A program made the position numbers and the translations under genes. Shown here piece after piece: positions 1,246-15,720 of a stretch of DNA of 64,000 nt (position 1 is the first letter of the stretch; each line of letters begins with the position of its first letter). The stretch covers positions 11,546 through 75,545 of the forward strand of contig LS999832.1 of the NCBI GenBank assembly GCA_900537185.1, in the 5' to 3' direction. The notes beneath the pieces were generated by a model that was not told the DNA's origin, searched no databases, and saw only the letters and a list, made by a program, of their open reading frames with translations. This DNA is from Cytophagales bacterium Alg240-R148. Lineage in GTDB: Bacteria > Bacteroidota > Bacteroidia > Cytophagales > Cyclobacteriaceae.

Positions 1246-1619
1246 TGGACTATTTTATTAATATAATATTTTTTGGGGTTCTTAACTTTTTGATGTATCA
1301 GTTTTTAACTAGGAAGCTAAAGTTGAATACAACTGTAGTTTTAGGGTTATTTGTTTTGCTTTTTCTTGTATTTATAGTGATACAAGTTGGTTTCATAGGA
1401 GGTATGCCTCAGAATAAGTTTTATTTATTGATATTGTTTAGTTGCTCTTTAATATTGTTTCATTTTGGTAGTGCAAGTGTGTTATGGATTTTATCTAAAA
1501 TCAATCCTAAAATTAAAGATCATTTTGTTTTGGTGTTATTTAATTTTCTTCGTTTTTATGTTGTTTATTTTTTAATTTATATTTTTCAAATTAGCTATAT
1601 CTTTATAGGGGATTATTGA
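1242..1619 (+). CDS. Small four-helix membrane protein, putative immunity protein of RHS module 1
   Basis: This 125-residue protein starts inside the stop of the RHS gene (ATGA overlap), so translation is probably coupled. It is almost entirely hydrophobic, with four predicted membrane helices (around residues 3-22, 29-50, 61-85 and 95-122) and short basic loops such as TRKLKLN and SKINPKIKDH. I recognise no family. Position directly behind a variable RHS tip is where the cognate immunity gene normally lies, and polytopic immunity proteins usually protect against toxins acting on the inner membrane; that inference is from context only. The gene is AT-rich compared with the core part of the RHS gene, as is typical for exchangeable tips and their immunity genes. 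Confidence 0.65.
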   Translation: MMDYFINIIFFGVLNFLMYQFLTRKLKLNTTVVLGLFVLLFLVFIVIQVGFIGGMPQNKFYLLILFSCSLILFHFGSASVLWILSKINPKIKDHFVLVLFNFLRFYVVYFLIYIFQISYIFIGDY

Positions 1620-1656
1620 ATTCTTCATTATCCCCTATCGTCCTCGTTTGTAACAG

Positions 1657-1716
1657 CCTGTCCCGAGAATAGGGAAGTATGTAATGAGATTAGCGCATCT
1701 CGATTCTCGGAACAGG
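1657..1716. repeat. Long imperfect inverted repeat in the spacer behind module 1
   Basis: CCTGTCCCGAGAAT (1657-1670) pairs with ATTCTCGGAACAGG (1703-1716) with one mismatch in 14 positions, around a loop of about 32 bases. It lies between the immunity gene and the terminator that ends module 1. The equivalent spacer before module 3 has a different imperfect hairpin at the same relative place. Possible 3' end structure or recombination-related palindrome. Confidence 0.5.
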
Positions 1717-1727
1717 TGCAGCGCTAT

Positions 1728-2970
1728 TGTATAAACAAACAAAGCAAGACCAGCTTTCCATACAGGGGAGCTGGTTTTTCATTGTGCTAGTTTTTGAATT
1801 TTGTTTTTTGTGATAAATGCATCGATGGTCTTTTTACACTTTCCACTCTTTAGCATGCACGATATACAACCAATACCATTTAAAAAGGACCTCTTTTGCT
1901 TATATTTACGATGCCAACGGCAATATGACCACCGACCACAACAAAGATATCGCCACCATCACGTACAACCATTTGAACTTGCCTACACAAGTAACCAAAA
2001 CAGATGGGCAGTACATCCAATATATTTACGATGCAGCAGGGATTAAATTGGCACAAGAAGTATACAATGCCAGTGCAGTATTTCAAAAGCGCACCGATTA
2101 TGCAGGGGAGTTTATTTATGAAACGACCCCATCAGTGCCGCGTGCCTTGCAATTTATCCAACACGAAGAAGGCCGCATCATGCCAGCCCGTTCCGAATAC
2201 CAATACCATTTAAAAGACCATTTGGGCAATGTAAGGCTGACGTTTACTACCAAGCCAGAGACCACAAGTTATTTGGCCACCATGGAAACTGAAAATGAGC
2301 AACAAGAAACCCAGGCAGAAGGATTCCAAATAACTGCTTCTGCCCGATGCAATGGCATAGAAGAATTGAACCACACACCAGCCGACCAAATAGGAACGGC
2401 AGGAGAAGTGCTTAGGTTAAATGCATCCCGCGAGGTTGCAGCAGGTTTATCGAAATCATTGCAAGTACAAGCAGGCGACAACCTTAGTTTAAAAGTATAT
2501 GCCAAATACGCCGATTTACGAAACAACCAGTCCAATGTAGGAACTGCTTTATTGTCTTTGTTGGCATCAGGCGCTTATACCACACAGGTATTGGAAAACG
2601 GCATGGTAGAGCTATTTGATGGGGCAGGTACTTCTATGGGAGTCATGGGCTCCAACAGCACCCCAGCAGGTGATGTGCCAGCCGCCTATTTGAACTATAC
2701 TTTGTTTGATGAAGACATGGTGCCAATACCTGGTGCAGCAGGTTTCCAGCAAATAAGCAAGGCGGCATTGATTGATCCATTAACAGGGCTCAACCAGCCC
2801 CACGAAGAATTAACCTTGGTAGTGCCTGAAATTACGCAAGCAGGTTATATCAACATTTGGGTAAGCCATGACGGCACCCAAAACTACGATATTTATTTCG
2901 ACGACCTGAGCATAGACCACCAACACGGCCCAGTGGTACAAGCCGATGATTATTATCCTTTTGGGTTGAC
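1728..2970 (+). repeat. Long direct repeat, RHS module 2 leader and core (matches 4788-6028)
   Basis: About 1.2 kb, beginning in the noncoding leader with its terminator and running through the RHS core, is nearly identical to 4788-6028. The leaders carry small insertions and deletions that shift frame while the core does not, which shows the leader is not under coding selection. Such long direct repeats would support homologous exchange or deletion of modules. Confidence 0.85.
1749..1780 (+). terminator. Intrinsic terminator behind RHS module 1
   Basis: ACCAGCT (1749-1755) pairs with AGCTGGT (1769-1775), followed directly by a run of T. It separates module 1 and its immunity gene from module 2, so transcription of module 2 from upstream would be reduced. 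Confidence 0.75.
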
Positions 2971-3844
2971 ATTTAATAGTTGGAAGAGGGCAGGGATGTT
3001 GAAGAATGACTTTTTGTATAATGGGAAGGAAATGCAGGATGAGTTGGATTTGGAGTGGTTTGCATTTGGAGCTAGGTATCATGACGCTGCTCTAGGGAGG
3101 TTTTTTAATATAGATCCCAAAGCGGAAACGTATTCATTTCAATCCCCTTTCGCGTATGGCGCAAATAACCCTATTAAGTATATAGAAGTAAATGGAGAAG
3201 GGCCTGGAGATGTAGTTGTTAAGCGTCGTACAAGGTTTAACAAACCTGATAAAAATGGAAATTATAACATTAAAACAATTCACGATCTTGGACATACCGG
3301 AGTGGCTGGTTTTAAAAAGAATACGGAAACAGGAAAAACGGAAGTAGTTTTAGATATAGCATATAATAATAGGTTTGTTGATGGTCCATTCAAAACAAAT
3401 AACCCTAATTCAAGATTAAATAAGGATAATCCAGGTCTGTTTGATGAGGTTCAAGCTCATGAAGAAGGGCATGCAGATCAGTATGAAGATGTATTAAAAA
3501 ACGATGACACTTTCAGTTATGGCGACTATAAAGGGAGTATAGTTGAGGTATTTGATAATGCTTTATCAGATATTCAATCTAATCATCAGGGCATGATGGA
3601 CAACGCTAAATCTGAGGGCGAAGCGAACGATATTAAAAAGAGCTTCGCCAATTCCGTATCGACCCTAGTTGGATCTTTAAGTAATCAAACCTATAACAAA
3701 GTTCAAGGTAAATATAATGGAAAAACTAATACCGAAAATGATGCGAACAGAAGAGCGACAAGTAAATTGAGAAGCAACGGGAAAAGCATAAACTATATAA
3801 ATAACAACAAGAAAATAATGTATGATGGGAAACCACTTGAATAA
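1817..3844 (+). CDS. Orphan RHS-core module 2 with HExxH metallopeptidase-like tip
   Basis: The frame encodes YD-repeat segments (AYIYDANGNMTTD, YIYDAAGIKLAQE), the YQYHLKDHLGNVRLTF motif, a beta-rich middle and the RHS core end (GRFFNIDPKAETY), then a variable tip from about residue 460. The tip contains HEEGH at residues 548-552, a zincin-type HExxH motif, inside QAHEEGHADQYEDV, with acidic residues downstream that could complete the metal site. A peptidase toxin is therefore plausible. The N-terminus has no signal peptide and none of the long N-terminal part of full RHS proteins; an in-frame stop lies directly before the ATG at 1817, and that ATG is not conserved in module 3. It is best read as an orphan tip that may be silent until recombined into a full-length RHS gene. 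Its immunity gene overlaps its 3' end. Confidence 0.75.
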   Translation: MHRWSFYTFHSLACTIYNQYHLKRTSFAYIYDANGNMTTDHNKDIATITYNHLNLPTQVTKTDGQYIQYIYDAAGIKLAQEVYNASAVFQKRTDYAGEFIYETTPSVPRALQFIQHEEGRIMPARSEYQYHLKDHLGNVRLTFTTKPETTSYLATMETENEQQETQAEGFQITASARCNGIEELNHTPADQIGTAGEVLRLNASREVAAGLSKSLQVQAGDNLSLKVYAKYADLRNNQSNVGTALLSLLASGAYTTQVLENGMVELFDGAGTSMGVMGSNSTPAGDVPAAYLNYTLFDEDMVPIPGAAGFQQISKAALIDPLTGLNQPHEELTLVVPEITQAGYINIWVSHDGTQNYDIYFDDLSIDHQHGPVVQADDYYPFGLTFNSWKRAGMLKNDFLYNGKEMQDELDLEWFAFGARYHDAALGRFFNIDPKAETYSFQSPFAYGANNPIKYIEVNGEGPGDVVVKRRTRFNKPDKNGNYNIKTIHDLGHTGVAGFKKNTETGKTEVVLDIAYNNRFVDGPFKTNNPNSRLNKDNPGLFDEVQAHEEGHADQYEDVLKNDDTFSYGDYKGSIVEVFDNALSDIQSNHQGMMDNAKSEGEANDIKKSFANSVSTLVGSLSNQTYNKVQGKYNGKTNTENDANRRATSKLRSNGKSINYINNNKKIMYDGKPLE

Positions 3845-4289
3845 TTATACGCTGATTCTAATGATCACCTCATTTTTACTGGTGAAGTGTACACCTAAAG
3901 AAACAAAAAAGGAGATTAACTATGAACTAGACTCCATTTGGGAAAAAGATAGTGCAACTGGAGACTTAACTTACTTCCCTTTTGAAAGACAATTTGAAGA
4001 AATAGTCGAAAACCACCTTGAGAAAGTTGACAAATTGGGAGAAACGAAATTTTTGTATAACACTCAATTAGACACTCTGTACAGATGGTATAATAGTGCA
4101 TATCGTCCAACAAAATCAGTAAGAGCGGCAATAATCAGCAAAATAAATAATGTTGATTACTTAAAAGATCTATTGCATGACGACGATTTTATTAGGGTTT
4201 GGGAAAAGGCAAAACAGGACTCAGCTAATTTAAAGACTAATGTTGAAATGATAACAGCAAGACTGAATAAGTTAGAATCAGAACTTTAA
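3822..4289 (+). CDS. Small lipoprotein, putative immunity protein of RHS module 2
   Basis: The gene overlaps the end of the RHS module by 23 bases. The product (155 residues) starts with a short hydrophobic stretch ending in a lipobox-like LLVKC (Cys about residue 23), followed by a charged, helix-rich domain (ELDSIWEKDS, FEEIVENHLEKVDK) with no family I recognise. A lipoprotein would sit in the periplasm, suiting protection against a toxin met outside the cytoplasm. The immunity role rests on position only. ATG at 3825 or the Met before ITSFLL are alternative starts. Confidence 0.6.
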   Translation: MMGNHLNNYTLILMITSFLLVKCTPKETKKEINYELDSIWEKDSATGDLTYFPFERQFEEIVENHLEKVDKLGETKFLYNTQLDTLYRWYNSAYRPTKSVRAAIISKINNVDYLKDLLHDDDFIRVWEKAKQDSANLKTNVEMITARLNKLESEL

Positions 4290-4360
4290 TTTTTTGTTAA
4301 ACAACCCTCAGTTAGAAGGACAAACTCACCGGCTCTACGACCCGTTTTAACAAATTACTG

Positions 4361-4663
4361 GTGATTATAAATGCAGTATTGGCATTGTTCGGAATTAGTG
4401 TGTTATACTTTGTTTCTCTGTTTTGGATGGGTAGTAAAGAAGAATATGAAGAATTGGTCAATAACTCGTATTGGTCATTCTTTGCTAACAGATTACTTTT
4501 CAATATTCTGGTAGTACTTGTAATTATTGTGCTTGTAGGTGCAATTAACTGGTTGATTCAGAAGGTTACAAAAGTTAATATGAGAGTTAAAAGAATATTG
4601 ACCATCGATTTTTTAATATTTACTATTTGCTCGATTGTCTTTATTGCTATACAGTTGTCTTAA
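4361..4663 (+). CDS. Small three-helix membrane protein, possibly a 5'-truncated orphan immunity gene
   Basis: The 100-residue product has three predicted membrane helices (about residues 2-22, 43-66 and 77-98) and a GTG start. The frame stays open upstream to a stop at 4313-4315 and reads like protein (KDKLTGSTTRFNKLLV), so either the true start is a non-standard codon upstream or the 5' end has been lost by recombination. It lies behind the lipoprotein of module 2, where second or orphan immunity genes often persist after their toxin has been exchanged. No family is recognised. The DNA is AT-rich like the other immunity genes. Confidence 0.45.
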   Translation: MIINAVLALFGISVLYFVSLFWMGSKEEYEELVNNSYWSFFANRLLFNILVVLVIIVLVGAINWLIQKVTKVNMRVKRILTIDFLIFTICSIVFIAIQLS

Positions 4664-4787
4664 CAAGAAGTAATTAAGAAAGGAAACAAAAGCCCTTGCA
4701 GAGATGTGGACTTTTTACTTATAAGCCACTCTGGTTTTAGCATCTCCCTTGCAGTGAGGGCCTTTGAGATTTGCGCATGTTGAGCTC

Positions 4788-6028
4788 TTGTACAAACAAA
4801 CAAAGTAAGACCAACTTGCCATACAGGGGAGCTGGTTTTTTATTGTGCTAGTTGTTGATTTTTCTTATTGGTTATAAAAGCATCGATGGGTTTTTTACAC
4901 TTTTCTCTTTTGCATGCACGATATGCAACCAATACCATTTAAAAGGGACCTCTTTTGCTTATATTTATGATGCCAACGGCAATATGACAACCGACCACAA
5001 CAAAGATATCGCCACCATCACGTACAACCACTTGAACTTACCAGCGCAGGTGACTAAAACCGATGGGCAGTACATACAATATATTTACGATGCAGCGGGC
5101 ATTAAATTGGCACAAGAAGTATACAATGCCAGTGCAGTATTACAAAAGCGCACAGACTATGTAGGCGAGTTTATTTATGAAACAACACAAACGGTTCCAA
5201 GGGCTTTGCAGTTCATCCAACACGAAGAAGGTCGCATCATGCCAGACCGTTCTGAATACCAATACCATTTAAAAGACCATTTGGGCAATGTAAGGCTGAC
5301 GTTTACTACCAAGCCAGAGACCACAAGTTATTTGGCCACCATGGAAACTGAAAATGAGCAAGAAGAAACCCAGGCAGAAGGTTTCCAAATAACCGCTTCT
5401 GCCCGATACAATGGCATAGAAGAATTGAACCACACACCAGCCGGTGAAATAGGCACTGCCGGGGAAGTATTGCGATTGAATGGTTTTAGAAAGGTGTTCA
5501 AAGGATTGTCCAATGATTTACAAGTACAAGCAGGCGACAACATTCAACTAAAAGTATATGCCAAATACGCCGATTTACGAAACAACCAGTCCAATGTAGG
5601 AACGGCCTTGTTGTCGCTTATGGCGTCAGGCGCTTATACCACACAGGTATTGGAAAACGGCATGGTAGAGTTGTTTGATGGGGCAGGTACTTCCATGGGG
5701 GTTCTGGGTTCCAACAGCACCCCAGCAGGTGATGTGCCAATGGCTTATTTGAACTATACTTTATTCGATGAAGACATGGTGCCAATCCCTGATGCAGGCG
5801 GTTTTCAGCAAATAAGCAAGGCGGCATTGATTGATCCATTGACAGGGCTCAACCAGCCCCACGAAGAAATAACTTTGCATGTTCCAGAAATAACACAAGC
5901 CGGTTATATCTACATTTGGGTAAGCCATGACGGCACCCAAAACTACGATATTTATTTCGACGACCTGAGCATAGACCACCAACACGGCCCAGTAGTACAA
6001 GCCGATGATTATTATCCTTTTGGGTTGA
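4788..6028 (+). repeat. Long direct repeat, RHS module 3 leader and core (matches 1728-2970)
   Basis: Second copy of the 1.2 kb leader plus core repeat. Differences are scattered substitutions, with one cluster around 5485-5530 (residues GFRKVFKGLSNDL against ASREVAAGLSKSL), as if that patch was exchanged separately. Confidence 0.85.
4809..4842 (+). terminator. Intrinsic terminator between RHS modules 2 and 3
   Basis: ACCAACT (4809-4815) pairs, with one mismatch, with AGCTGGT (4829-4835), followed by a run of T. It is the copy of the terminator at 1749-1780 and stands at the same place in the repeated leader. Confidence 0.6.
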
Positions 6029-6888
6029 GTTTTAATGAATGGAAAAAAGATGGAAGTAAGGAGAATAAAATGAATACTTTCCAAGACCAAGAAAAAACAG
6101 ATGAATTGGATGTAGATTGGGTGCAATTCAAATGGAGAAACCATTATGCCGATATTGGCAGGTTCTTTAATGTGGATCCTTTAGCAAATGATTATGTTTA
6201 TAATTCGCCTTATGCCTTTAGTGAGAACCATGTGACAGTACATGTAGAGTTAGAAGGGTTGGAGAAGGTATCGATAGTATCAATAGGGGCAGATGTGGAG
6301 TATCGTGGTAAAAGAATAGCAAATAAAGTAAGTGGCTCTTCTCATACAAATATTAGTTCTACTGATAATGCAGCTGAACGAGTAGTAAATACCTTAAAGT
6401 CAGAAAGTGCAAGTGATCCAAAGGGTATTGGGTTTTTGGGAATCTTTTCACATGGAGTTGCTGATAAAGTATTTGGGAAAGGAGGCTATTTTAATGGAAT
6501 GACTACTGCTGATGTTGAAGATGTGTCAAGTGGGGTTACTTCGGGAGAAATTAAATTTGCAGACGGTGCTGTGATTTACTTAGGAGGCTGTAACGCCGGT
6601 ACTGACTGGAGTGGGAATGGTTCTTTTGCCCAAGAACTTGCCGAAGCAACTGGTGCCTTGGTAGTGGCTGCTGATAATGATCAAGTAGGTCTTAAAGATG
6701 AATCAAATGGCAATATGGTTTATACGACAGCTTATCCTGCGGAAAATGAATTTAATGTTTATAAGGCAGGACAATCTCCTGTTGGTATTGGTCCAACAGT
6801 CGATGTTAATGTGCTAATGAATGCTGCCGAAAGGCGCACATCGGAAACACCTAAAAAGATTGAGCCAATAAAAGATGTTGAATTATGA
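4852..6888 (+). CDS. Orphan RHS-core module 3 with clan CD (caspase-like) peptidase tip
   Basis: The core (YD repeats, YQYHLKDHLGNVRL, beta-rich middle) matches module 2, but the core end (residues about 380-470, to LEGLEK) matches module 1, so the gene is a mosaic. The tip, residues about 471-678, carries a His-Cys pair typical of clan CD cysteine peptidases: FSHG with His534 and YLGGCNAG with Cys580, each after a hydrophobic strand, then FAQELAEATGALVVAADND, as in caspase/CHAT-type folds. This makes a cysteine protease toxin plausible. The open frame begins at a TTG in the noncoding leader; no ATG, promoter or signal peptide is evident, so this is again probably an orphan tip. Start uncertain. 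The following lipoprotein gene overlaps the stop by four bases. Confidence 0.75.
   Translation: MLIFLIGYKSIDGFFTLFSFACTICNQYHLKGTSFAYIYDANGNMTTDHNKDIATITYNHLNLPAQVTKTDGQYIQYIYDAAGIKLAQEVYNASAVLQKRTDYVGEFIYETTQTVPRALQFIQHEEGRIMPDRSEYQYHLKDHLGNVRLTFTTKPETTSYLATMETENEQEETQAEGFQITASARYNGIEELNHTPAGEIGTAGEVLRLNGFRKVFKGLSNDLQVQAGDNIQLKVYAKYADLRNNQSNVGTALLSLMASGAYTTQVLENGMVELFDGAGTSMGVLGSNSTPAGDVPMAYLNYTLFDEDMVPIPDAGGFQQISKAALIDPLTGLNQPHEEITLHVPEITQAGYIYIWVSHDGTQNYDIYFDDLSIDHQHGPVVQADDYYPFGLSFNEWKKDGSKENKMNTFQDQEKTDELDVDWVQFKWRNHYADIGRFFNVDPLANDYVYNSPYAFSENHVTVHVELEGLEKVSIVSIGADVEYRGKRIANKVSGSSHTNISSTDNAAERVVNTLKSESASDPKGIGFLGIFSHGVADKVFGKGGYFNGMTTADVEDVSSGVTSGEIKFADGAVIYLGGCNAGTDWSGNGSFAQELAEATGALVVAADNDQVGLKDESNGNMVYTTAYPAENEFNVYKAGQSPVGIGPTVDVNVLMNAAERRTSETPKKIEPIKDVEL
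5983..6268 (+). repeat. RHS core-end repeat, copy 2 (matches 340-630)
   Basis: Nearly identical to the core end of module 1, while everything before it in module 3 matches module 2. The switch of similarity near 6030 is direct evidence that module 3 arose by recombination between module 1-like and module 2-like sequences. Confidence 0.85.
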
Positions 6889-7496
6889 AAACTAGACTAT
6901 TAATATTATCAACAATCCTGATTAGTTGTAGTACCTCAATGCGAGAGGACAACAATGATAAAAAAGAAATCATTTCAGAATCAAAAAGTACAGAGGAGAA
7001 AGTGACTGAGAGTTATGACAAGCCCACAGATTTGGTAAAAACAGACCATTGTTTGAATTTACTGAATAATGTGAATAGAGCAAAAATCAAAGAACTTACA
7101 GGAAAGTTCACAACTAGCACAATATTGAGCAGTGAAGAAAGAAAGGACTATTCAATTAGTAGTGATACAGGAACAGTTGGTTTATATAATTTATTCTATG
7201 TGAATAACAATGATATAATAATGCTTGGAGAACTTGTTGTCTATACGGAAAGTGATCCAACTTCTTGGAAAATGTTTGAAGAAAACGAGCAGATATTATC
7301 AATTGAGTTAATGTCTCCAGGCTACGATATTGACGATATTATTAAAATAGGAGCTAAAATTGACATAATACTTGATAAATATAGAGCCATCAAGAAATTT
7401 TCAACTGATTTATATACGTTCGAAGATGATTGTGAAAGCTTAGTCATAAAGACTCGCAACGAAATTGTTTTAAGTATTAAAGTAAGCATGAAATAA
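6885..7496 (+). CDS. Lipoprotein, putative immunity protein of RHS module 3
   Basis: The ATG overlaps the stop of the RHS module (ATGA). The 203-residue product has a short lipoprotein signal ending in LISCS (Cys15), then a Lys/Glu/Ser-rich linker to about residue 45 and a mixed alpha/beta domain (LNLLNNVNRAKIKELTGKF, GTVGLYNLFYVNNND) ending at IVLSIKVSMK. No family recognised. As the partner of a tip that looks like a cysteine peptidase, it may act as an inhibitor at the membrane, but this is inferred from position. Confidence 0.6.
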   Translation: MKTRLLILSTILISCSTSMREDNNDKKEIISESKSTEEKVTESYDKPTDLVKTDHCLNLLNNVNRAKIKELTGKFTTSTILSSEERKDYSISSDTGTVGLYNLFYVNNNDIIMLGELVVYTESDPTSWKMFEENEQILSIELMSPGYDIDDIIKIGAKIDIILDKYRAIKKFSTDLYTFEDDCESLVIKTRNEIVLSIKVSMK

Positions 7497-8131
7497 TAAG
7501 ATTACAGCTATCCAAAGCTTACAATCTAAATTTGTACCTAACTGCTTTAATACTTGGACCAGTTTCCAGCTAAAAACGGAAACAAATGATCACAATGACC
7601 CAATATCCGACCTCTTTTAAATGGCGTCAAGAAAATACGGCTAAGTTTTGACGGTATTGAAATCCAGATGTTTGAGCAGGAATGGCAGCATACTAATTCT
7701 TGAAAAATAGAGAGATTTAAAAAAAAGTAAATTTACCCAGCGCAGGCCAGACAAAACAGCGGGCTAAGCGAAGGCCAAGCGGGAAGAAGCTTTGTTTTGT
7801 CTTGATTTTTTGTTTCGTTTTGTATCAAGACAAAATGAAAGGCTGGTACTGGGCCACCCCAGGAAAATCACAACCCCAAATAAAAGAAAACCCGTTACTA
7901 ATTAATCGTGCCAAAAAAATGTAACTAAAAACTATGACTCCCTCCACCAAAAAATCGAACCAATAAACGAAACTAAAATCATGTAACATTTATCCGATCC
8001 TATAGAAAGAAGATAAATAAGATAGTTTTAACCACCCCCAACTACGCTAAACATACTACCTTCATCTCCTTTTTTTTAAAATAAAACTCTAAAACTACTA
8101 GCAATAAAACCTACCTTAGCAAAACCAGAAA
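7497..8131. other. Gene-free interval with one structured repeat copy
   Basis: No gene is supported in these 635 bases. The centre holds repeat copy R1 (7598-7895). The right end (7900-8131) is A/C-rich and resembles the degenerate tandem tract that follows other copies (CCAAAAAATCGAACCAA-like). No clear promoter for the following hutD-like gene was found. Confidence 0.7.
7598..7895 (+). repeat. Structured intergenic repeat, copy R1
   Basis: It begins with the family head (ATCCGACCTCTTTTAAATGG) and contains GAAATCCAG but has lost the matching right arm. Instead it shares a block with R4 (CGCAGGCCAGACAAAACAGC onward). It ends with a hairpin whose arms are TTTCGTTTTG (7813-7822) and CAAAATGAAA (7831-7840), then the family tail CTGGGCCACCCCAG and CAAATAAAAGAAA. 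Confidence 0.75.
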
Positions 8132-8728
8132 ATGAAAATAAAAACATTCAACCCAGCTCATTTTAAAACTACCCAATGGGAGGGAGGCAGCACTACAGAA
8201 CTATTCATCTGGCCACAAAATGCTCAGTTTTCAGAAAGAAAATTTGATTTCCGTTTGAGTTTGGCAACAGTAGAAAGAGCGGCATCTGAATTTACACCCT
8301 TGCTCGGTATCCACAGACAATTAATGGTACTTAAAGGGGCTCAAGATTTGACCCACCAAGATCAGCACAGCAAAGACTTAAAACCATTGGATGTCGATCA
8401 ATTTGAAGGAGGCTGGACAACCAGCGCCAAAGGCACTGCTGTCAACTTTAATGTAATGACCATGGGCGAGGTACAAAGCCATTTGTATGGAATGGAACTT
8501 CCTGCCCATCAACTCAAAAACATACAACCAACTTTAGCGGCTACTTGTATGGCCCTATATGTGGCAGAAGGCAAGGTGCAATTAAGAGCAAACGGAATAG
8601 AGTACATGCTAGAGCAAGGAGTCCTAGCCATCGCCCAAGCTCCATCAATTACCAACATCACAATAATTCCAGATTTACCAAGCGAACTGGCCATTACCGA
8701 AATTAAATTAAAGCAAGTTTCTGTTTGA
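8132..8728 (+). CDS. HutD/Ves family protein
   Basis: The 198-residue product matches the HutD/Ves cupin-like family in length and in its hallmark pattern: WEGGSTTELFIWP near residue 17, FDFRLSLATVE around residues 37-47, a GIHRQLMVLKG segment and a late FNVMTMG. HutD proteins are often linked to histidine utilisation, with an unclear role in regulating it, and Ves to cold response in E. coli; no hut genes occur here, so the function in this genome is open. It stands alone between two repeat-filled gaps with no operon partner. The start ATG follows an A-rich stretch without a clear ribosome binding site, normal for this phylum. Confidence 0.75.
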   Translation: MKIKTFNPAHFKTTQWEGGSTTELFIWPQNAQFSERKFDFRLSLATVERAASEFTPLLGIHRQLMVLKGAQDLTHQDQHSKDLKPLDVDQFEGGWTTSAKGTAVNFNVMTMGEVQSHLYGMELPAHQLKNIQPTLAATCMALYVAEGKVQLRANGIEYMLEQGVLAIAQAPSITNITIIPDLPSELAITEIKLKQVSV

Positions 8729-8819
8729 GTGGATTCATTTTCTTTTCACATCACTTCAATGCCGCCCTATAGTTTTAATTAATCCTTATTTCCAATTTAA
8801 TTAGCCCACGGCTTGCCTC

Positions 8820-8922
8820 AAGTTTTTTGTTTGGATTTTATATTTCATATACTTAGCTTCTTTTTCTCGGTTATGTTATATAAATCTAGTATCAATAATC
8901 ATCTATTTTCTTTTTCTTTGTC
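8820..8922 (+). repeat. Direct repeat C, copy 1
   Basis: About 100 AT-rich bases from AAGTTTTTTGTTTGGATTTT to the TTTTTCTTTG end, matched at 12190-12292 with about two differences. The two copies flank the BASS transporter and S10 peptidase genes in the same orientation. Confidence 0.85.
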
Positions 8923-8929
8923 TTTCATT

Positions 8930-8974
8930 TTTGGATGCATTTTTTTCTATTTTGATTAATTCAGGGTAGTATGG
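8930..8974 (+). repeat. Short direct repeat, copy 1 (matches 12524-12568)
   Basis: About 45 bases including TTTTGGATGCATTTTTTTC and CAGGGTAGTAT occur again at 12524-12568 with one difference. It is part of the same mosaic as repeats B and C. Confidence 0.75.
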
Positions 8975-9048
8975 TTTTTCTATAATATTATGCTCTTCTT
9001 TTTTCTCGCCTTTCATTTTTCCCTGTTGAAAAACGAAACAAAAAAACA

Positions 9049-9165
9049 TTTCCAATTTAATTAGCTCGCGGCTTGCCCCGTGGCATCCCACGCTCAAAAG
9101 CCAGCCCCGGCAGCAACACGGCCATCCTCGCTCAGGCCTCCAGAAATTGAAAATCAACCCGCTAT
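9049..9165 (+). repeat. Repeat B, 5'-truncated copy
   Basis: From TTTCCAATTTAATTAGCTCG to the CAGAAATTGAAAATCAACCC end it matches the right two thirds of the B repeats at 12293, 12607 and 13827. The left third with the CAATTGG/CCAATTG palindrome is missing. Confidence 0.75.
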
Positions 9166-9215
9166 TAAAACATTGATTTTAAATACATCGAATATAGACC
9201 GAAAGCAATCAACCC

Positions 9216-9500
9216 TCAATCCGACCTCTTTAAAATGGCGTTAAAAAAATAAGCCAAAGTCATAACGATCCCGAAATTCAGCTGTTTGAGCAGCGCTGGC
9301 CCTATGCAAGAGGGCGAGTTCCTGAATTTCTAGATTGCATCGAGGCTGATTTTTAGTCATTTCAAAGCAGTCTTGAATTTTTTGTTACTTTTCTTTTCAA
9401 GAAAAAAAGTAAGACAAGCTCCTGGGCCACCCCAGAAAAAAGGCAACCACAAATAAAAGAAAACTCTCCCCTAAAAAATCGAACCAAAGAAACGAAACCA
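9216..9500 (+). repeat. Structured intergenic repeat, copy R2
   Basis: Has the GAAATTCAG (9273-9281) and CTGAATTTC (9322-9330) stem, the outer TTTAAAATGG and TCATTTCAAAG arms, a second hairpin with TTACTTTT (9385-9392) and AAAAGTAA (9405-9412), and the family tail CTGGGCCACCCCAG. It ends just before the transporter gene. Confidence 0.8.
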
Positions 9501-9514
9501 AAACGAACAAAACA

Positions 9515-10369
9515 CTAACCCTTCACCACTCTAACCCCATATGCAATAACCACCCCTCCGGTTAAAAACATAATCAAACTATAAACCGCAGGAGCAATCG
9601 CATAATTATCATTCATTAAAATACCGGTAGCTATCGCCATGGCCATGGTGCCATTTTGAATGCCCGATTCGATCGAAATGGTAATCGATTGGGACAAACT
9701 TAACCTTGCCAAACGGGCTGTTGCATACCCTACAGCCATGGAACCCGCATTGAGTGCCAAGGCCATCCATCCTGCTTGTTGCAGAAACGGGATCAAATCT
9801 TCTTTTTTCTTGATCACCAAACCTACTATAACTAAAAACAACACCGCAGCCGATGCTATTTTGACGGGTTTGTTCATGCGGTTGGCAAAAACTGGGTGGT
9901 AGGCTCGGATGGTCATTCCAGTAGCAATAGGAATTATCACGATGGCAAATATTTGCGCAATGGTTTGGAGTTTGTTGAGCTCAATCATTTCATTGGCCTC
10001 CAAAAAATACTGCAGCGAAAAGTCCACTACAAAAGGAATGGTTAAAATGGTAATCAGGCTGTTCGCAGTGGTCAAAGAAACTGACAAACCTGCATCGCCT
10101 TTGGCCAAAAAAGAAATTAAATTGGAAGTCGCCCCACCAGGGCAAGCTGCCAACAACATCAAACCAATAGCAATGTCCGTTTGTACTTCAAAAATTGCAA
10201 TTAATACAAATGCAATAATGGGAAGCAAAATTATTTGATTGATCAAACCCACTACCATGGCTTTGGGTTGCTGGAAAAGACGTGTAAAATCCCTTCTGAC
10301 AAGGGATAAACCCATTCCGAACATAATTATAGCCAATGCCGCAGCAAGAATGATGGTTCCTATTTCCAT
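9515..10369 (-). CDS. Bile acid:sodium symporter (BASS) family transporter
   Basis: The 284-residue protein is hydrophobic throughout with about nine to ten membrane helices. It carries the BASS signature AACPGGATSNLISFLAKGD at about residues 94-112, GLMLLAA before it, and a second Gly/Pro-rich crossing around VIIPIATGM. Family members move bile acids or other organic anions (pyruvate, pantothenate and others) with sodium; in a bacterium of this type bile acid is unlikely as the natural substrate and the real one cannot be read from sequence. The gene runs toward repeat R2 and is downstream of the S10 peptidase on the same strand, separated by a strong terminator, so it is probably transcribed on its own. 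Confidence 0.85.
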   Translation of the reverse strand: MEIGTIILAAALAIIMFGMGLSLVRRDFTRLFQQPKAMVVGLINQIILLPIIAFVLIAIFEVQTDIAIGLMLLAACPGGATSNLISFLAKGDAGLSVSLTTANSLITILTIPFVVDFSLQYFLEANEMIELNKLQTIAQIFAIVIIPIATGMTIRAYHPVFANRMNKPVKIASAAVLFLVIVGLVIKKKEDLIPFLQQAGWMALALNAGSMAVGYATARLARLSLSQSITISIESGIQNGTMAMAIATGILMNDNYAIAPAVYSLIMFLTGGVVIAYGVRVVKG

Positions 10370-10507
10370 AGTAGTTGATTGGTTGTACGTTTCAATCTAA
10401 TAAGCACGTAGGACTTTATAAAGAATAAACTTTGATTTATTTGTTAATATTTTTGTGGAAAGTAGTTAAAACCCAGAGTTTTATAGGTCAATTGTAGCAG
10501 GGGATTT

Positions 10508-10544
10508 AAAAAAACTATCCTCCAGTGTTTTGTGAGGATAGTTT
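10508..10544 (-). terminator. Terminator of the S10 peptidase gene
   Basis: AAACTATCCTC (10512-10522) and GAGGATAGTTT (10534-10544) form a perfect 11-bp stem; read on the minus strand the stem is followed by a run of seven T. It lies 17 bases behind the peptidase stop codon. Confidence 0.85.
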
Positions 10545-10560
10545 AATAAGTAAATGGTTT

Positions 10561-12081
10561 TTATTTGGATGTTTGGTCAATAAAAGCATCCACATCCTTT
10601 TTAAATTTCTCCATAGAAGGAAGGTGGGTGTACATCATGTGACCTGCTTCGTAGTACTTCATAATAATATTCTTTTTTAAGTCAGGAGTTAATCCCATGT
10701 GGTTAATAGAATGTTCCACTCCATAAAAGACGGTAGCCAAATCATAGTAACCGTTTAAAATTAGTATTTTAAGATTGGGGTTCCTTTTCATGGCAGCCGT
10801 CATGTCGGGCAACGTACTAATTACGGCTTGTGCGTTCCAAATAACATTGCCTTGGTGTTTCCAGTCCCACTTAAACCCTTTTCTGGAACCAGCACTGGTG
10901 GTGTAAGTTAAGTCGGCGCGCACATTTAAATCATTGTACAAGTAATCTTTAAAAGCGGCAATGTAGGGTGGAGATATGGCATCACTTTGAGGGTCGGTAA
11001 AAGAAAACTGAGAAAGCAAATCTTCATTTTGCCCAACAAAACGGCTATCCAAACGGCCAACTGTCAGACCTTTGTCTCGAAGCAACTCTTGAAAGTATTC
11101 GTCTGCAGTTACGCGCAAGTCGGCTTTTAACCAGAAAGTTTGGCTGAGCCCCGAGTAATCCGCTAGTTTTTGCGCCATTGCCTCTTTTTCTTGGGGCGTA
11201 AGCTGGTCTCCTTTGAGCAGTGCTAGGGCGTATTCGTTTTCGGTAAATTTTCGAACCCCCTCTAAAAACTCTTCTAAAGAAGCCCCTTTGTTTTTGACTT
11301 TGTTGTGGTACCAAGCCGTGGAGGCATAAGCAGGGAAGTGTATCAGATAAGAAACATCATTGCCAGGGCCAAACAACAAATGTTGGAGGTCAAACACAGC
11401 AGAAACCATTATAACGCCATTCATGGCAATGCCCTTGTCTTGTAAGTGTTTTACTAGGGCCGCATTTCTAAAAGTCCCATAACTTTCTCCAAGCAAGTAT
11501 TTTGGAGCGTTCATTTTATTGCTTCGGATCAAAAATTGCTCAATGAACAAACCAATGCTCTTTACATCCTGGTCCACACCCCAAAAATCTTCCCATTTGG
11601 CTTCTCCTACTGGCTTGCTAAATCCCACTCCAACCGGGTCTATCATTACCAAATCTGCTTTGTCTAAAATAGAAAATTCGTTATTGACTACTTGGTAGGG
11701 CGCTGGTTGGGTATAATCTGGGTCATTGATGGCAATGCGTTTGGGCCCCAGTACTCCAAAATGCAACCAGAAAGAAGCCGAGAGCGGCCCGCCATTAAAA
11801 GCAAATACTATGGGTCTGCTGTTTTTTTGACCTATTTTGGTCTCCGGTTTTTTGTAATGTGTAAAACCAAACAAAGCAATGGGTTTGTCGTTTGCATCTC
11901 GAAGTACAACCGTACCGGTTTCCGCATCTAAATTAATCGTTTTGCCCCCTATGGTTACTGTTTGTTTGGAATGAAAAGTTTCTCCTCTAATCTTTTCTGG
12001 ATTCGTTTTTATTTCTTTTTCCTGTGCGTAAATGCCCATGGTGCACAAAGCAAGGAGCATGGCAATGAGTGTGTTTTTCAT
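10561..12081 (-). CDS. Secreted S10 family serine carboxypeptidase-like protein
   Basis: The 506-residue product has a signal peptide (cleavage after residue about 19, IYAQ) and the S10 fold. The catalytic triad is readable: Ser200 in GESYG, Asp447 in NGYYDLATVF, His481 in AGHMMYTH. The oxyanion-hole segment, NGGPGSSS in most S10 enzymes, is NGGPLSAS here, a Gly-to-Leu change that may alter activity. The downstream part (VIMVSAVFDLQHL) fits bacterial S10 relatives. It is expected in the periplasm and to remove C-terminal residues from peptides. It is flanked by direct repeat C copies together with the BASS gene and ends at a strong terminator. Confidence 0.85.
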   Translation of the reverse strand: MKNTLIAMLLALCTMGIYAQEKEIKTNPEKIRGETFHSKQTVTIGGKTINLDAETGTVVLRDANDKPIALFGFTHYKKPETKIGQKNSRPIVFAFNGGPLSASFWLHFGVLGPKRIAINDPDYTQPAPYQVVNNEFSILDKADLVMIDPVGVGFSKPVGEAKWEDFWGVDQDVKSIGLFIEQFLIRSNKMNAPKYLLGESYGTFRNAALVKHLQDKGIAMNGVIMVSAVFDLQHLLFGPGNDVSYLIHFPAYASTAWYHNKVKNKGASLEEFLEGVRKFTENEYALALLKGDQLTPQEKEAMAQKLADYSGLSQTFWLKADLRVTADEYFQELLRDKGLTVGRLDSRFVGQNEDLLSQFSFTDPQSDAISPPYIAAFKDYLYNDLNVRADLTYTTSAGSRKGFKWDWKHQGNVIWNAQAVISTLPDMTAAMKRNPNLKILILNGYYDLATVFYGVEHSINHMGLTPDLKKNIIMKYYEAGHMMYTHLPSMEKFKKDVDAFIDQTSK

Positions 12082-12189
12082 TTCAATAGGTTTTGGTTAA
12101 GAGGATGTAGGTTATCTTTTGTGGAATATACTAAATCTGGTTTGATTAAGTTGGGCCATTTCCAATTTTATTAGCCGACGGCCAACCCC

Positions 12190-12292
12190 AAGTTTTTTGT
12201 TTGGATTTTATATTTCATATACTTAGCTTCTTTTTCTCGGTTATGTTATATGAATCTAGCATCAATAATCATCTATTTTCTTTTTCTTTGTT
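12190..12292 (+). repeat. Direct repeat C, copy 2
   Basis: Matches 8820-8922 with about two substitutions. It is joined on its right directly to a B repeat, unlike copy 1, which suggests that B inserted or recombined at this edge. Confidence 0.85.
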
Positions 12293-12495
12293 TTTTGCAT
12301 CCCACAAGCTCGCCCAATTGGCACCGCCAATTGTCGTGGATGTACAAAAACGAAACCAGTGTTGGATAGGACCATTTCCAATTTAATTAGCCCTCGGCCA
12401 ACCCCATGGCATCCCACGCTCAAAAGCCAGCTCCGCCTGCAACACGGCCGTCTTCCCTCAAGCCTCCAGAAATTGAAAATCAGCCCGCAGTTTAA
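12293..12495 (+). repeat. Repeat B, full copy 1
   Basis: About 200 bases. The left part holds CAATTGG (12315-12321) and CCAATTG (12327-12333), a perfect small palindrome; then ACGAAACCAGTGTTGGATAG, TTTCCAATTTAATTAGCCC and a GC-richer end to CAGCCCGCAGTTTAA. Same order in copies at 12607 and 13827. Confidence 0.85.
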
Positions 12496-12523
12496 CTTTT
12501 ATTGATGTTTATGTTTCATAGTT

Positions 12524-12568
12524 TTTGGATGCATTTTTTTCTATTTTGATTAATGCAGGGTAGTATTG
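12524..12568 (+). repeat. Short direct repeat, copy 2 (matches 8930-8974)
   Basis: Shares TTTTGGATGCATTTTTTTC and the CAGGGTAGTAT end with 8930-8974. It links the two B copies on either side. Confidence 0.75.
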
Positions 12569-12606
12569 ATTTATTTATAAATTTGTTTTCCTTCTTCTTT
12601 GTCTTT

Positions 12607-12807
12607 TGCATCCCACAAGCTCGCCCAATTGGCACCGCCAATTGTCGTGGATGCCCAAAAACGAAACCAGTGTTGGATAGGACCATTTCCAATTTAATTA
12701 GCCCTCGGCCAACCCCATGGCATCCCACGCTCAAAAGCCAGCCCCGGCAGCAACACGCCATCCTCGCTCAGGCCTCCAGAAATTGAAAACCAGCCCGCAG
12801 TTTAATA
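12607..12807 (+). repeat. Repeat B, full copy 2
   Basis: Nearly identical to 12293-12495, with palindrome arms at 12627-12633 and 12639-12645. It is followed by the stretch CTCCATAGTTGAGAATCAAT that also joins the third B copy to R6. Confidence 0.85.
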
Positions 12808-12837
12808 AAATATTTGAAATAGAAACTCCATAGTTGA

Positions 12838-13102
12838 GAATCAATCCAATATCCGACCTCTTTTAAATGGCGTCAAGAAAATACGGCTAAGATTTAACGG
12901 TATTGAAATCCAGATGTTTGACCAGGGCAAGCCTTGCGTATGGGCGGGAGTTCCTGGATTTCCACATCGCAACAAGCCGTATTTTTAACCATTTAAAAGC
13001 AGTCTTGATTTTTTGCTTTGGTTTTTGATCAAGCAAAAAGCAAAAACGAGTCCCTGGGCCACCCCAGAAAAAAGACAACCACAAATAAAAGAAACCCACA
13101 AC
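12838..13102 (+). repeat. Structured intergenic repeat, copy R3 (best-formed stem)
   Basis: Three nested perfect stems are visible: CTTTTAAATGG (12860-12870) with CCATTTAAAAG (12989-12999); AAAATACGGCT (12878-12888) with AGCCGTATTTT (12975-12985); GAAATCCAG (12905-12913) with CTGGATTTC (12954-12962). A second hairpin follows, TTTTGCTTT (13011-13019) with AAAGCAAAA (13037-13045), then the CTGGGCCACCCCAG tail. Confidence 0.9.
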
Positions 13103-13279
13103 TAAAAAGTCGAACCAATAATTGAAACTAAAAACAATCAACCCCACCAAAAAATCGAACCAAAAATCGAAACTAAAAACAATCAACCCCACCAAATAAT
13201 CGAACCAAAAAACGAAACTAAAACAACCAACTCCACCAAAAAATCGAACCAAAAAAACGAAACTAAAAGCAATCAACCC
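13103..13279 (+). repeat. Tandem repeat, about 45-bp unit
   Basis: About three and a half imperfect copies of a purine/C-rich unit of 44-46 bases of the form CAATCAACCCCACCAAAAAA, TCGAACCAAAAA, CGAAACTAAAA. Shorter stretches of the same unit follow R4 (about 13616-13705), R6 (about 14322-14420) and R7 (about 14672-14757). Confidence 0.8.
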
Positions 13280-13620
13280 TCAATCCGACCTCTTTTAAAT
13301 GGCGTCAAGAAAATTCGGCTAAGTTTTGACGGAATTGGAATCCAGATGTTTGAGTAGAATAGGTAGTATACTAATTCTTAATTAGTAGAGAGATTTTAAA
13401 AAAAGTAAATTTACCTAGCGCAGGCCAGACAAAACAGCGGGCCAAGCGAAGGCCTAGCGGGAAGAAGCTTTGTTTTGTAGTCTTGGGCATCCCTGCAATC
13501 CTCGCCCAATTGGCACCGCCAATTGTCGTGTTTCGTTTTTGTTCAAGCAAAAAGCAAAAAGCAAAAACGAGTCCCTGGGCCACCCCAGAAAAAAGACAAC
13601 CACAAATAAAAGAAAGCCCT
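13280..13620 (+). repeat. Structured intergenic repeat, copy R4, carrying an inserted palindrome
   Basis: Starts with the family head, then shares with R1 the block CAGGCCAGACAAAACAGCGG. Its second hairpin is interrupted by part of repeat B (GGGCATCCCTGCAATCCTCG to AATTGTCGTG, about 13487-13530) including the palindrome CAATTGG (13507-13513) and CCAATTG (13519-13525). The tail CTGGGCCACCCCAG is intact. Confidence 0.8.
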
Positions 13621-13705
13621 CCACCAAAAAATCGAACCAAAAAACGAAACTAAAAACAATCAACCCCACCAAATAATCGAACCAAAAAAACGAAACTAAA
13701 AGCAA

Positions 13706-13826
13706 TCAACCCTCAATCCGACCTCTTTTAAATGGCGTTTAAAAAATAAGCCCAGGTCATAACGATCCCGAAATTCAGCTGTTTGAGCAGCGCTGGCCCT
13801 GCGCAGGGGTGCGAGTTCCTGAATTT
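13706..13826 (+). repeat. Structured intergenic repeat, copy R5, cut by repeat B
   Basis: The left half matches R7 up to the inner stem; the right arm is broken inside CTGAATTT where repeat B begins. The CCCTGCGCAGGG palindrome is present in the loop. Confidence 0.8.
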
Positions 13827-14036
13827 TCTCGCCTTTTGCATCCCACAAGCTCGCCCAATTGGCACCGCCAATTGTCGTGGATGTACAAAAACGAAACCAG
13901 TGTTGGATAGGACCATTTCCAATTTAATTAGCCCTCGGTCAACCCCATGGCATCCCACGCTCAAAAGCCAGCCCCACCTGCAACACGGCCATCCTCCCTC
14001 AAGCCGCCTAAAATTGAAAACCAGCCCGCCATCTAA
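13827..14036 (+). repeat. Repeat B, full copy 3, sitting inside R5
   Basis: Palindrome arms at 13856-13862 and 13868-13874; otherwise as copies 1 and 2. Its left edge replaces the right half of R5, which shows that B or a segment containing it moved into an existing structured repeat. Confidence 0.8.
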
Positions 14037-14075
14037 TCCAATATTTGAAATAAAAACTCCATAGTTGAGAATCAA

Positions 14076-14345
14076 TCCAATATCCGACCTCTTTTAAATG
14101 GCGTCAAGAAAATTCGGCTAAGTTTTGACGGGATTGAAATCCAGATGTTTGACCAGGGCAAGCCTTGCGTATGGGCGGGAGTTCCTGGATTTCCACATCG
14201 CAACAAGCCGTATTTTTAGCCATTTAAAAGCAGTCTTGATTTTTTGCTTTGGTTTTTGATCAAGCAAAAAGCAAAAACGAGTCCCTGGGCCACCCCAGAA
14301 AAAAGACAACCCCAAATAAAAGAAAACCCGCCACTAATAAATCGA
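14076..14345 (+). repeat. Structured intergenic repeat, copy R6
   Basis: Nearly identical to R3 in the inner GAAATCCAG/CTGGATTTC stem, the outer stem and the second hairpin; the middle stem has a TTCGGC left arm against GCCGTATTTT, weakened by one base. Confidence 0.85.
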
Positions 14346-14419
14346 ACAAAAAAAACGAAACTAAAAACAATCAACCCCACCAAAAAATCGAACCAAAAAT
14401 CGAAACTAAAAACAATCAA

Positions 14420-14700
14420 CCCTCAATCCGACCTCTTTTAAATGGCGTTTAAAAAATAAGCCCAGGTCATAACGATCCCGAAATTCAGCTGTTTGAGCAG
14501 CGCTGGCCCTGCGCAGGGGTGCGAGTTCCTGAATTTCCATTGTGAAACGAGGCTGATTTTTAGCCATTTAAAAGTAGTCTTGATTTTTTTTGTTACTTTA
14601 TTTGCATCAAGGCAAAAAAGTAAGACAAGTCCCTGGGCCACCCCAGAAAAAAGACAACCACAAATAAAAGAAACCCACAACTAAAAAGTCGAACCAAAAA
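14420..14700 (+). repeat. Structured intergenic repeat, copy R7
   Basis: Outer stem CTTTTAAATGG (14435-14445) with CCATTTAAAAG (14564-14574); inner stem GAAATTCAG (14480-14488) with CTGAATTTC (14529-14537); loop contains CCCTGCGCAGGG; second hairpin TTACTTT (14593-14599) with AAAGTAA (14617-14623). Together with R3 it gives compensating changes in two stems. Confidence 0.9.
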
Positions 14701-14757
14701 AACGAAACTAAAAACAACCAACTCCACCAAAAAATCGAACCAAAAAAAACCAAAAAA

Positions 14758-15720
14758 CTAAATATTCACTTCTGCAAACCCCACTGCCTTCTGTTCCGAC
14801 CAATAATCTGGAGAAGTAAAATTGGGAAAACCACAATGCCCTCCTGCTTTAGGAGTAAGCAAATGGAACAACTTATTAGAACTTTTATAAGTAAAACTTT
14901 CTTCTGATAAAAAACTGTCATTTCGAGCATTGATCATCAAAAGAGGTACTTTAATGCTGTCAATAAAGTGGATACTGCTATTTTGGGTGTAATAGTCTTC
15001 CGCGTCTTGGAACCCATGGATAACAGAAGTGAAATGTTCGTCAAACATTCTTATGCCATCTATTTTTTTGAGCAGATTCAAATCAAAGCTACCGGGTAAT
15101 GCAGCTTCCTTGCGCAACACCTTAGATTTCAAACTTTTTAAAAAACGCCTGCTGTAAAGGTAATTGCTGGGTCTTGCAATGGCATCACAAGATCCGCTAA
15201 GGTTTATTGGAACTGAAATGGCAATGCCCGCTTTTAATTGCGCTGGTTTTGTTGTGGTTTCACCTAAGTATTTGGTGGCAAGGTTGCCTCCGAGGCTGAA
15301 CCCAACTAAAACCATGTGTTCAAACTGATTGCTCGCTGCGGCATGTTGCATCACAACGTCCAAATCATAGGTTGCACCACTGTGGTAAAATATTTTTTTT
15401 CTATTCAATTCTTCTCCGCAACTTCTAAAATTCCATAGTAAAACAGAATACCCTTGGTTGTAAAAAGCCTTGGCCATGCCTTTCATATACGGCCTTCGGC
15501 TGCTGCCTTCTAAGCCATGGCAGACCACCGCCAGCTTTTTGGAACCGTGGTTAAGGACCCAATCAAGGTCTAGAAAATCACCATCTGGGGTGTCAATTCT
15601 TTCTGTTTTAAACTCCAAGCCCTCTACTTTTCTGAACAAAGCCGGGTAAATGGTTTGTGCATAATGGCTACCAAAAAAAAATGGAGGGTTATAGTCATCA
15701 ATCAATTGCATCATGATCAA
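14758..15720 (-). CDS. YheT-type alpha/beta hydrolase
   Basis: The 320-residue protein follows the YheT family: the early YNPPFFFGSHYAQTIYP segment, oxyanion segment HGLEGSS near residue 65, NFRSCGEELNR, the nucleophile elbow GFSLGGN with Ser142, an acidic residue in NARNDSF and the late GGHCGF with the catalytic His. The family has esterase-like activity with poorly known natural substrates and is cytoplasmic. Two further Met codons lie within the first four residues (MIMMQ), so the start is uncertain by a few codons. The stop lies at the edge of the repeat island and no terminator was seen. Confidence 0.85.
   Translation of the reverse strand: MIMMQLIDDYNPPFFFGSHYAQTIYPALFRKVEGLEFKTERIDTPDGDFLDLDWVLNHGSKKLAVVCHGLEGSSRRPYMKGMAKAFYNQGYSVLLWNFRSCGEELNRKKIFYHSGATYDLDVVMQHAAASNQFEHMVLVGFSLGGNLATKYLGETTTKPAQLKAGIAISVPINLSGSCDAIARPSNYLYSRRFLKSLKSKVLRKEAALPGSFDLNLLKKIDGIRMFDEHFTSVIHGFQDAEDYYTQNSSIHFIDSIKVPLLMINARNDSFLSEESFTYKSSNKLFHLLTPKAGGHCGFPNFTSPDYWSEQKAVGFAEVNI

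Follow-up and report, generated by a model that had tools for sequence, protein, structure and literature searches.

The 64,000-nucleotide stretch of contig LS999832.1 of Cytophagales bacterium Alg240-R148 analysed here (the window) contains seven related repeats, R1-R7, between positions 7605 and 14646, and these are probably copies of a mobile repeat whose fold is under selection and specific to one strand. They represent the form taken in this genome by a widespread repeat family, in which the letters are species-specific and the shape is constant. All of them are placed on the + strand between genes, as described in the initial annotation, which was made from the sequence of the window alone. 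It had also been proposed there that a folded form is preserved, since both arms of the stems were seen to change together. The preservation of the fold was strongly supported by covariation between genomes but not by the paired changes within this genome (the home genome), on which the proposal had been based.

The conserved core of the repeat consists, from 5' to 3', of a foot (GGC or GAC), a mismatched CT, the outer arm, GCGTTAAGAA, the second arm and a variable middle, followed by the complementary second arm, TTTAGC, the complementary outer arm, CA, the complementary foot (GCC or GTC), TTGAT, a T-run and a hairpin with the loop ATCAAG. The pairing of GCGTTAAGAA with TTTAGC requires G, T and G on the 5' strand to be bulged, and these bulged bases are kept across lineages together with the CT/CA mismatch beside the foot. 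The middle often ends with TTTGA-stem-GAG. The three-base capping loops are always GNA, closed by GC/GC, AC/GT or CC/GG, and no four-base loops were seen. In DNA, three-base GNA loops with a closing C-G pair are highly stable.

Covariation between genomes was analysed in 45 distinct sequences, anchored on motifs only, that remained of a set of 72 once near duplicates and a small number of rows in poor register had been removed; the sequences are related and the covariation p-values are approximate. All 15 variable stem pairs had changed on both sides. Paired cells constituted 87.3 % in comparison to 64.3 % after shuffling, and the covariation score was 0.543 versus 0.142 ± 0.014 for shuffled sequences and no more than 0.185 when the partners were slid. 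In the whole set of 72 sequences the pairing in the arms amounted to 83.2 % (50.5 % shuffled), and to 80.2 % (49.9 % shuffled) when the home genome was left out. The foot also covaried: GGC/GCC was found 25 times, GAC/GTC 11 times, GGC/GTC once and the A-C type not at all. The 3' hairpin was represented by 54 distinct arm pairs with a covariation score of 0.671 versus 0.173 after shuffling; its 100 % pairing is partly built in, as each sequence was cut where pairing stopped. Since all the variable pairs as well as the foot covary between genomes, it is concluded that the folded form is kept.

The paired changes within the home genome (5.3 Mb, seven contigs) were less informative. The stems named in the initial annotation were found as written: the inner stem is GAAATCCAG/CTGGATTTC in R3 and R6 and GAAATTCAG/CTGAATTTC in R2 and R7, the second hairpin occurs in three differing forms, and the outer stem is CTTTTAAATGG/CCATTTAAAAG. 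An additional middle stem, AATACGGCT/AGCCGTATT versus AATAAGCC/GGCT.ATT, had not been described there. When 35 complete hairpins of the home genome were aligned over 30 base pairs, both-side changes were present at only three pairs, all in hairpin 1, and these three pairs split the copies into two classes, CGGCT/ATCCAG.. and AAGCC/ATTCAG... Some chimeric copies break the pairing in the middle stem. Thus the divergence of two old sequence classes, put forward in the initial annotation as an outcome that would speak against a kept fold, comes near to describing the home copies, but not the sequences compared between genomes, where both partners had changed at every one of the 15 variable pairs. 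In the 3' module CTTGAT was combined with the loop ATCAAG in 22 home copies and CTTGAA with TTCAAG in nine, with no mixed copies (one odd row in this tally is a coding sequence). CTTGAA was found together with several different hairpins.

The reduction of the home-genome changes to two classes, and the mosaic arrays, which imply frequent local copying errors, would suit a functionless fold whose arms were matched by template switching between palindrome arms or which descends from two diverged old classes. This explanation is improbable. Correction from arm to arm should erase mismatches, yet the GCGTTAAGAA bulges and the CT/CA mismatch were kept across lineages, and the conservation of unpaired bases speaks against copying alone; moreover, covariation between lineages is seen in the foot, in two stems and in the 3' hairpin.

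The mismatches left in the stems are informative about the strand. In a fixed register, and with only those stems considered in which 6 or more of the 8 pairs were Watson-Crick, 22 G-T and two A-C mismatches were counted; with a free register the numbers were 33 and 18, respectively. The excess of G-T over A-C indicates selection on this strand, that is, that one strand is folded. The same excess on the core strand, read as G-U wobbles, is among the arguments for the core being a structured RNA (small RNA, ribozyme or the RNA part of a mobile element) produced from the + strand of each copy, with the DNA copies as its genes. Variable stems around fixed unpaired bases are typical of RNA, and the compensating CTTGAT/ATCAAG and CTTGAA/TTCAAG forms could be part of a 3' pseudoknot. 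On the other hand, no promoter-like sequence conserved across genera was noticed by eye upstream of the foot, all gene orientations are used with no fixed gene context, and the core is present in tens of copies per genome in settings that look mobile. There was also no match to the window at the gathering threshold of Rfam 15; searches in the E-value mode gave nothing near a gathering score, and the best sub-threshold match (RAGATH-19, E = 0.48) was taken as chance. The structured RNA is therefore regarded as possible but rather unlikely. Nor was a matching element found in the literature searched, where sequence strings of the core gave no paper; in the initial annotation no known element of this kind had come to mind.

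When 59 relatives were searched, only pieces of the 3' module matched, and reading upstream of them revealed the full anatomy with unrelated stem letters. The 3' pattern (TTTTAGC, a gap and CAGYCTTGATTTTT) run over GTDB genomes was present in at least 117 stretches, some of them chance matches. In 296 sampled genomes of the phylum a reversed control pattern gave no match. Among the matches listed were Edaphocola, Taibaiella, Chitinophaga, Terrimonas, Pedobacter, Sphingobacterium, Kaistella, Chryseobacterium, Cytophaga and other genera, Bacteroides luti, and, outside Bacteroidota, Melioribacteraceae, Calditrichota, KSB1 and Desulfobacterota-named assemblies. The entire anatomy, with stem letters that bear no relation to each other, recurs across Bacteroidota and in Calditrichota, Melioribacteraceae and Desulfobacterota-named genomes. 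A model built from the 3' part only (model R1, cut-off E ≤ 0.001, with rough E-values) matched 85 of 198 genomes of the class (43 %) and 58 of 121 genera, as well as 19 of 58 genomes grouped with a Desulfobacterota-named assembly, with none in the other 39. The presence per genome was bimodal, either zero or several to dozens of copies. Upstream of the 3'-module loci from both searches with this model, an outer arm matching at 8 or more of 10 positions and a fully complementary foot were found in 18 of 31 parsable loci in comparison to 0 of 620 shuffled controls. Copies elsewhere than in the Edaphocola unit described below are intergenic and make use of all gene orientations. Searches of phage, plasmid and viral collections gave no match or one chance match.

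Tandem arrays were found in Kaistella antarctica and in the home genome. One K. antarctica stretch (L185) contains seven matches to the element pattern in approximately 4.3 kb, all on one strand and several of them approximately 355 nt apart, and adjoins a dense GGTGATTGAGCCTGTCGAAATCACC repeat array. In another stretch (L418) and in genomes G545 and G546 the 3' modules form, in several places, inverted pairs approximately 110 nt apart with the 3' ends facing each other, an arrangement that appears similar to REPINs (doublets of repetitive extragenic palindromic, REP, sequences forming hairpins).

Recent transposition took place in two Edaphocola species, where the core is enclosed in a dispersed unit of approximately 475 nt, present in approximately 40 copies and ending with terminal inverted repeats (ACTGACTATCCGC.. 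and ACTGAGTATCCGC..). Direct repeats of at least 7 nt, mostly 8–9 nt, flank 25 of 35 units in comparison to 4.5 % for mismatched flanks. At one orthologous spot (L111/L348) the unit is inserted in opposite orientations in the two species. Removal of the unit and one duplication leaves an identical empty site in both of them, and the duplicated bases, TTGTATTT and TTTTAATAT, differ, which demonstrates two separate insertions; an inversion in place was therefore rejected. Another candidate for an empty site, L147 in E. aurantiacus, was not taken as evidence because a small open reading frame (ORF) is missing there too. No inward pair of exact unit ends at a distance of 0.8–3 kb, as a sign of an autonomous parent, was found in the two Edaphocola genomes. 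Other copies of the core do not have the ends of the Edaphocola unit, and the core can therefore occur without this vehicle.

The full mechanism, in which single-stranded DNA would be the active form, is given slightly less than an even chance. The core would be read as folded single-stranded DNA, exposed for example at replication, by an enzyme or a host factor acting in trans. Every genome would then amplify its private version of the core, and in the home genome the arrays would have grown and been shuffled through recombination at common short modules to give mosaics such as R1, R4 and R5. Somewhat more tentatively, the repeats might belong to a phylum-spanning class of mobile elements defined by shape rather than by sequence, with a strand-specific bulged fold and a 3' pseudoknot-like module that would be recognised by an undescribed enzyme and carried by varied vehicles (inverted-repeat units, tandem arrays and single copies).

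Several observations weigh against a mobile repeat folded as one DNA strand. The predominance of G-T over A-C mismatches suits RNA no less than DNA, and an enzyme mobilising the repeat was not found. Full pairing of CTTGAT with the ATCAAG loop is hardly possible while the neighbouring hairpin is formed, and the interaction of the two may be an alternative to this hairpin rather than simultaneous with it. The orientation of the element in the home genome does not follow the GC skew. Terminal inverted repeats and target duplications were established in Edaphocola only, where the ends of the unit lie outside the core. Around the window's copies no terminal inverted repeats were found by eye, nor were target duplications found there; the check for these at the copy ends, proposed in the initial annotation, was positive for the Edaphocola unit only (9-nt duplications).

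Two kinds of partner were considered for the mobile repeat. Hairpins that occur in high copy number and are recognised as one strand resemble REPs in their behaviour, REPs are associated with Y1 transposases (REP-associated tyrosine transposases, RAYTs), relatives carry Y1 transposases, and some genomes have the inverted 3'-module pairs. Dependence on such an enzyme is nevertheless very improbable: the home genome gave no match to Y1_Tnp (PF01797) or NF047646, with a positive E. coli control, and the Y1 gene was absent in two other element-bearing genomes (G352 and G359), Bacteroides luti included. Out of approximately 60 fetched Y1 loci only one had the element at a distance of up to 1.5 kb, and the genome concerned contains many of both. 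RAYT/Y1 was therefore excluded as a requirement, being absent or not adjacent in the home genome, in relatives and in genomes with many copies of the element. A common neighbour gene was also rejected as the partner, since no gene recurs between genera. Finally, an orientation linked to replication was rejected, as the strand of the element in the home genome does not follow the GC skew.

In the home genome R6, used as the query copy for blastn, gave 79 matches in approximately 20 clusters; extended regions, for instance the initial 1.5 Mb of contig 1, were free of them. The 11-mer CTTTTAAATGG had 100 exact matches in comparison to 10 for the reversed pattern. The GC skew flips sign repeatedly in contigs C4, C5 and C7, where many element clusters are located, and keeps a single sign in C1 and C2; oppositely oriented clusters may have promoted inversions.

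The gene pairs flanking copies of the core were ++ in 27 cases, -- in 19, +- in 18 and -+ in 12, with no consistent orientation. This mixture, together with the lack of a recurring gene family, makes it very unlikely that the core is a cis-acting signal (terminator, attenuator or riboswitch) of the neighbouring genes. The intergenic location and the T-runs beside the hairpins would fit such a signal, but the T-run precedes the 3' hairpin rather than trailing it, and the copies showed no regular position behind stop codons or ahead of start codons.

In the window the feet TCCGACCTCTTT(T/A)AAATGGCG start near 7605, 9219, 12851, 13283, 13716, 14082 and 14426; the foot positions were also determined as 7607, 9221, 12853, 13285, 13718, 14084 and 14428. 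Both arms of the first hairpin are present in R2, R3, R6 and R7 only; R1, R4 and R5 are mosaic copies with a swapped 3' half, so that, in correction of the initial annotation, only four of the seven copies fold fully. The complete hairpins belong to class T in R2 (9219–9435, outer stem 9228–9367, 3' module 9369–9411 with the compensated pair CTTGAA/TTCAAG) and R7 (14426–14646, outer stem 14435–14574, 3' module 14576–14621), and to class C in R3 (12851–13067, outer stem 12860–12999, 3' module 13001–13043) and R6 (14082–14298, outer stem 14091–14230, 3' module 14232–14274). R1 (7605–7862) and R4 (13283–13588) retain the 5' half and miss the 3' arms because their 3' half is a different sequence, common to both, with its own hairpin GACAAAACA...TGTTTTGTC. 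R1 has a 3' module with the loop ATCAAG at 7799–7840 and CTGGGCCACCCCAG at 7849–7862, and in R4 the exchanged half is then broken by a CTCGCCCAATTGGCACCGCCAATTGTCGTG module. R5 (13716–13838) consists of the 5' half and the inner stem and passes after CTGAATTT into a different repeat, a module starting with TCTCGCCTTTTGCATCCC replacing the outer 3' arm and the 3' module. Single-strand folding z-scores relative to shuffles were -4.2 for R6, -3.9 for R7, -3.3 for R3, -2.3 for R2 and +1.1 for R1. An A-rich tail or spacer (AAAAAAGACAACCACAAATAAAAGAAACCC..., 14647–14757, + strand) follows most copies in the home genome and in arrays joins directly to the next foot.

R1 lies upstream of a HutD-family gene (8132–8728), R2 between this gene and a bile-acid-symporter-family gene (9515–10369, - strand), and R3–R7 between a serine carboxypeptidase-like gene (10561–12081, -) and an alpha/beta hydrolase gene (14758–15720, -). 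A second inserted module with the hairpin CCAATTGGC-ACC-GCCAATTG is present at 12309–12338, 12620–12649, 13501–13530 and 13850–13879, and also in stretches L039, L042, L044 and L049. Elsewhere in the genome it has the form GATAGGC-ACC-GCCTATC, with both arms changed, and in several copies it takes the place of the 3' half at GTCTTG or TTTGC junctions. A dispersed repeat of approximately 203 nt, GCATCCCACAAGCTCGCC...CAGCCCGC (12293–12495, 12604–12806 and 13834–14036), forms a leader before many hairpin copies, and a degenerate tandem repeat of approximately 45 nt, CAATCAACCCCACCAAAAAATCGAACCAAAAATCGAAACTAAAAA, occupies 13078–13280 between R3 and R4. Positions 1–7496 contain tandem RHS-repeat-core genes (1817–3844 and 4852–6888) with near-identical N-terminal parts, different C-termini and a small ORF after each, which looks like a polymorphic toxin/immunity array.

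The 3' module is thus found in 43 % of the sampled genomes of the class, yet neither in Rfam nor in the literature searched, and many unannotated intergenic repeats of Bacteroidota are explicable by the core family. The core provides a covariation-backed target for finding the protein that reads the fold, and its stems, changing pairwise around fixed unpaired bases, make the DNA-or-RNA question directly testable.

Among known systems, the structured RNAs of Rfam 15 resemble the core in having variable stems, conserved loops and covariation, but it scored below the gathering threshold of every family. Integron attC sites are palindromes in which the shape is conserved and certain bases of one strand are always left unpaired. 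The core is conserved in the same way; it is, however, not accompanied by cassette arrays, and its motifs differ by eye from the attC core, no integrase search having been made. In function the element is like a REP or a miniature inverted-repeat transposable element (MITE); the features distinguishing REPs were lacking and those of MITEs were found in Edaphocola only. MITEs, such as BrickBuilt of Porphyromonas gingivalis (PMC4596501) and MITECca01 of Cardinium (PMC9769881), are likewise non-autonomous and intergenic, and the Edaphocola unit has their terminal inverted repeats and 9-nt target duplications. Unlike in MITEs, conservation concerns the internal fold, which occurs in many genomes between ends that are unrelated, and no MITE ends were found around the window's copies. 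With the REP, REPIN and bacterial interspersed mosaic element (BIME) systems of TnpA_REP (RAYT), the core has in common the high copy number, intergenic location, palindromic character, single-strand recognition, arrays in which modules form mosaics, and versions that differ between species. It differs from them in being far longer (approximately 150–230 nt), with two stems with fixed bulges and a separate 3' module, in its spread over several phyla and in a home genome devoid of the Y1 transposase. The foot of REP hairpins is the tetranucleotide GT[AG]G, missing in subclasses 2.6 and 3 (PMC6006769), whereas the core has GGCCT or GACCT and no GTAG/GTGG. The closest published hint to the core is provided by the atypical structures reported, with no sequence in the text, beside the TnpA_REP subclass 2.6 genes of Bacteroidetes (PMC6006769).

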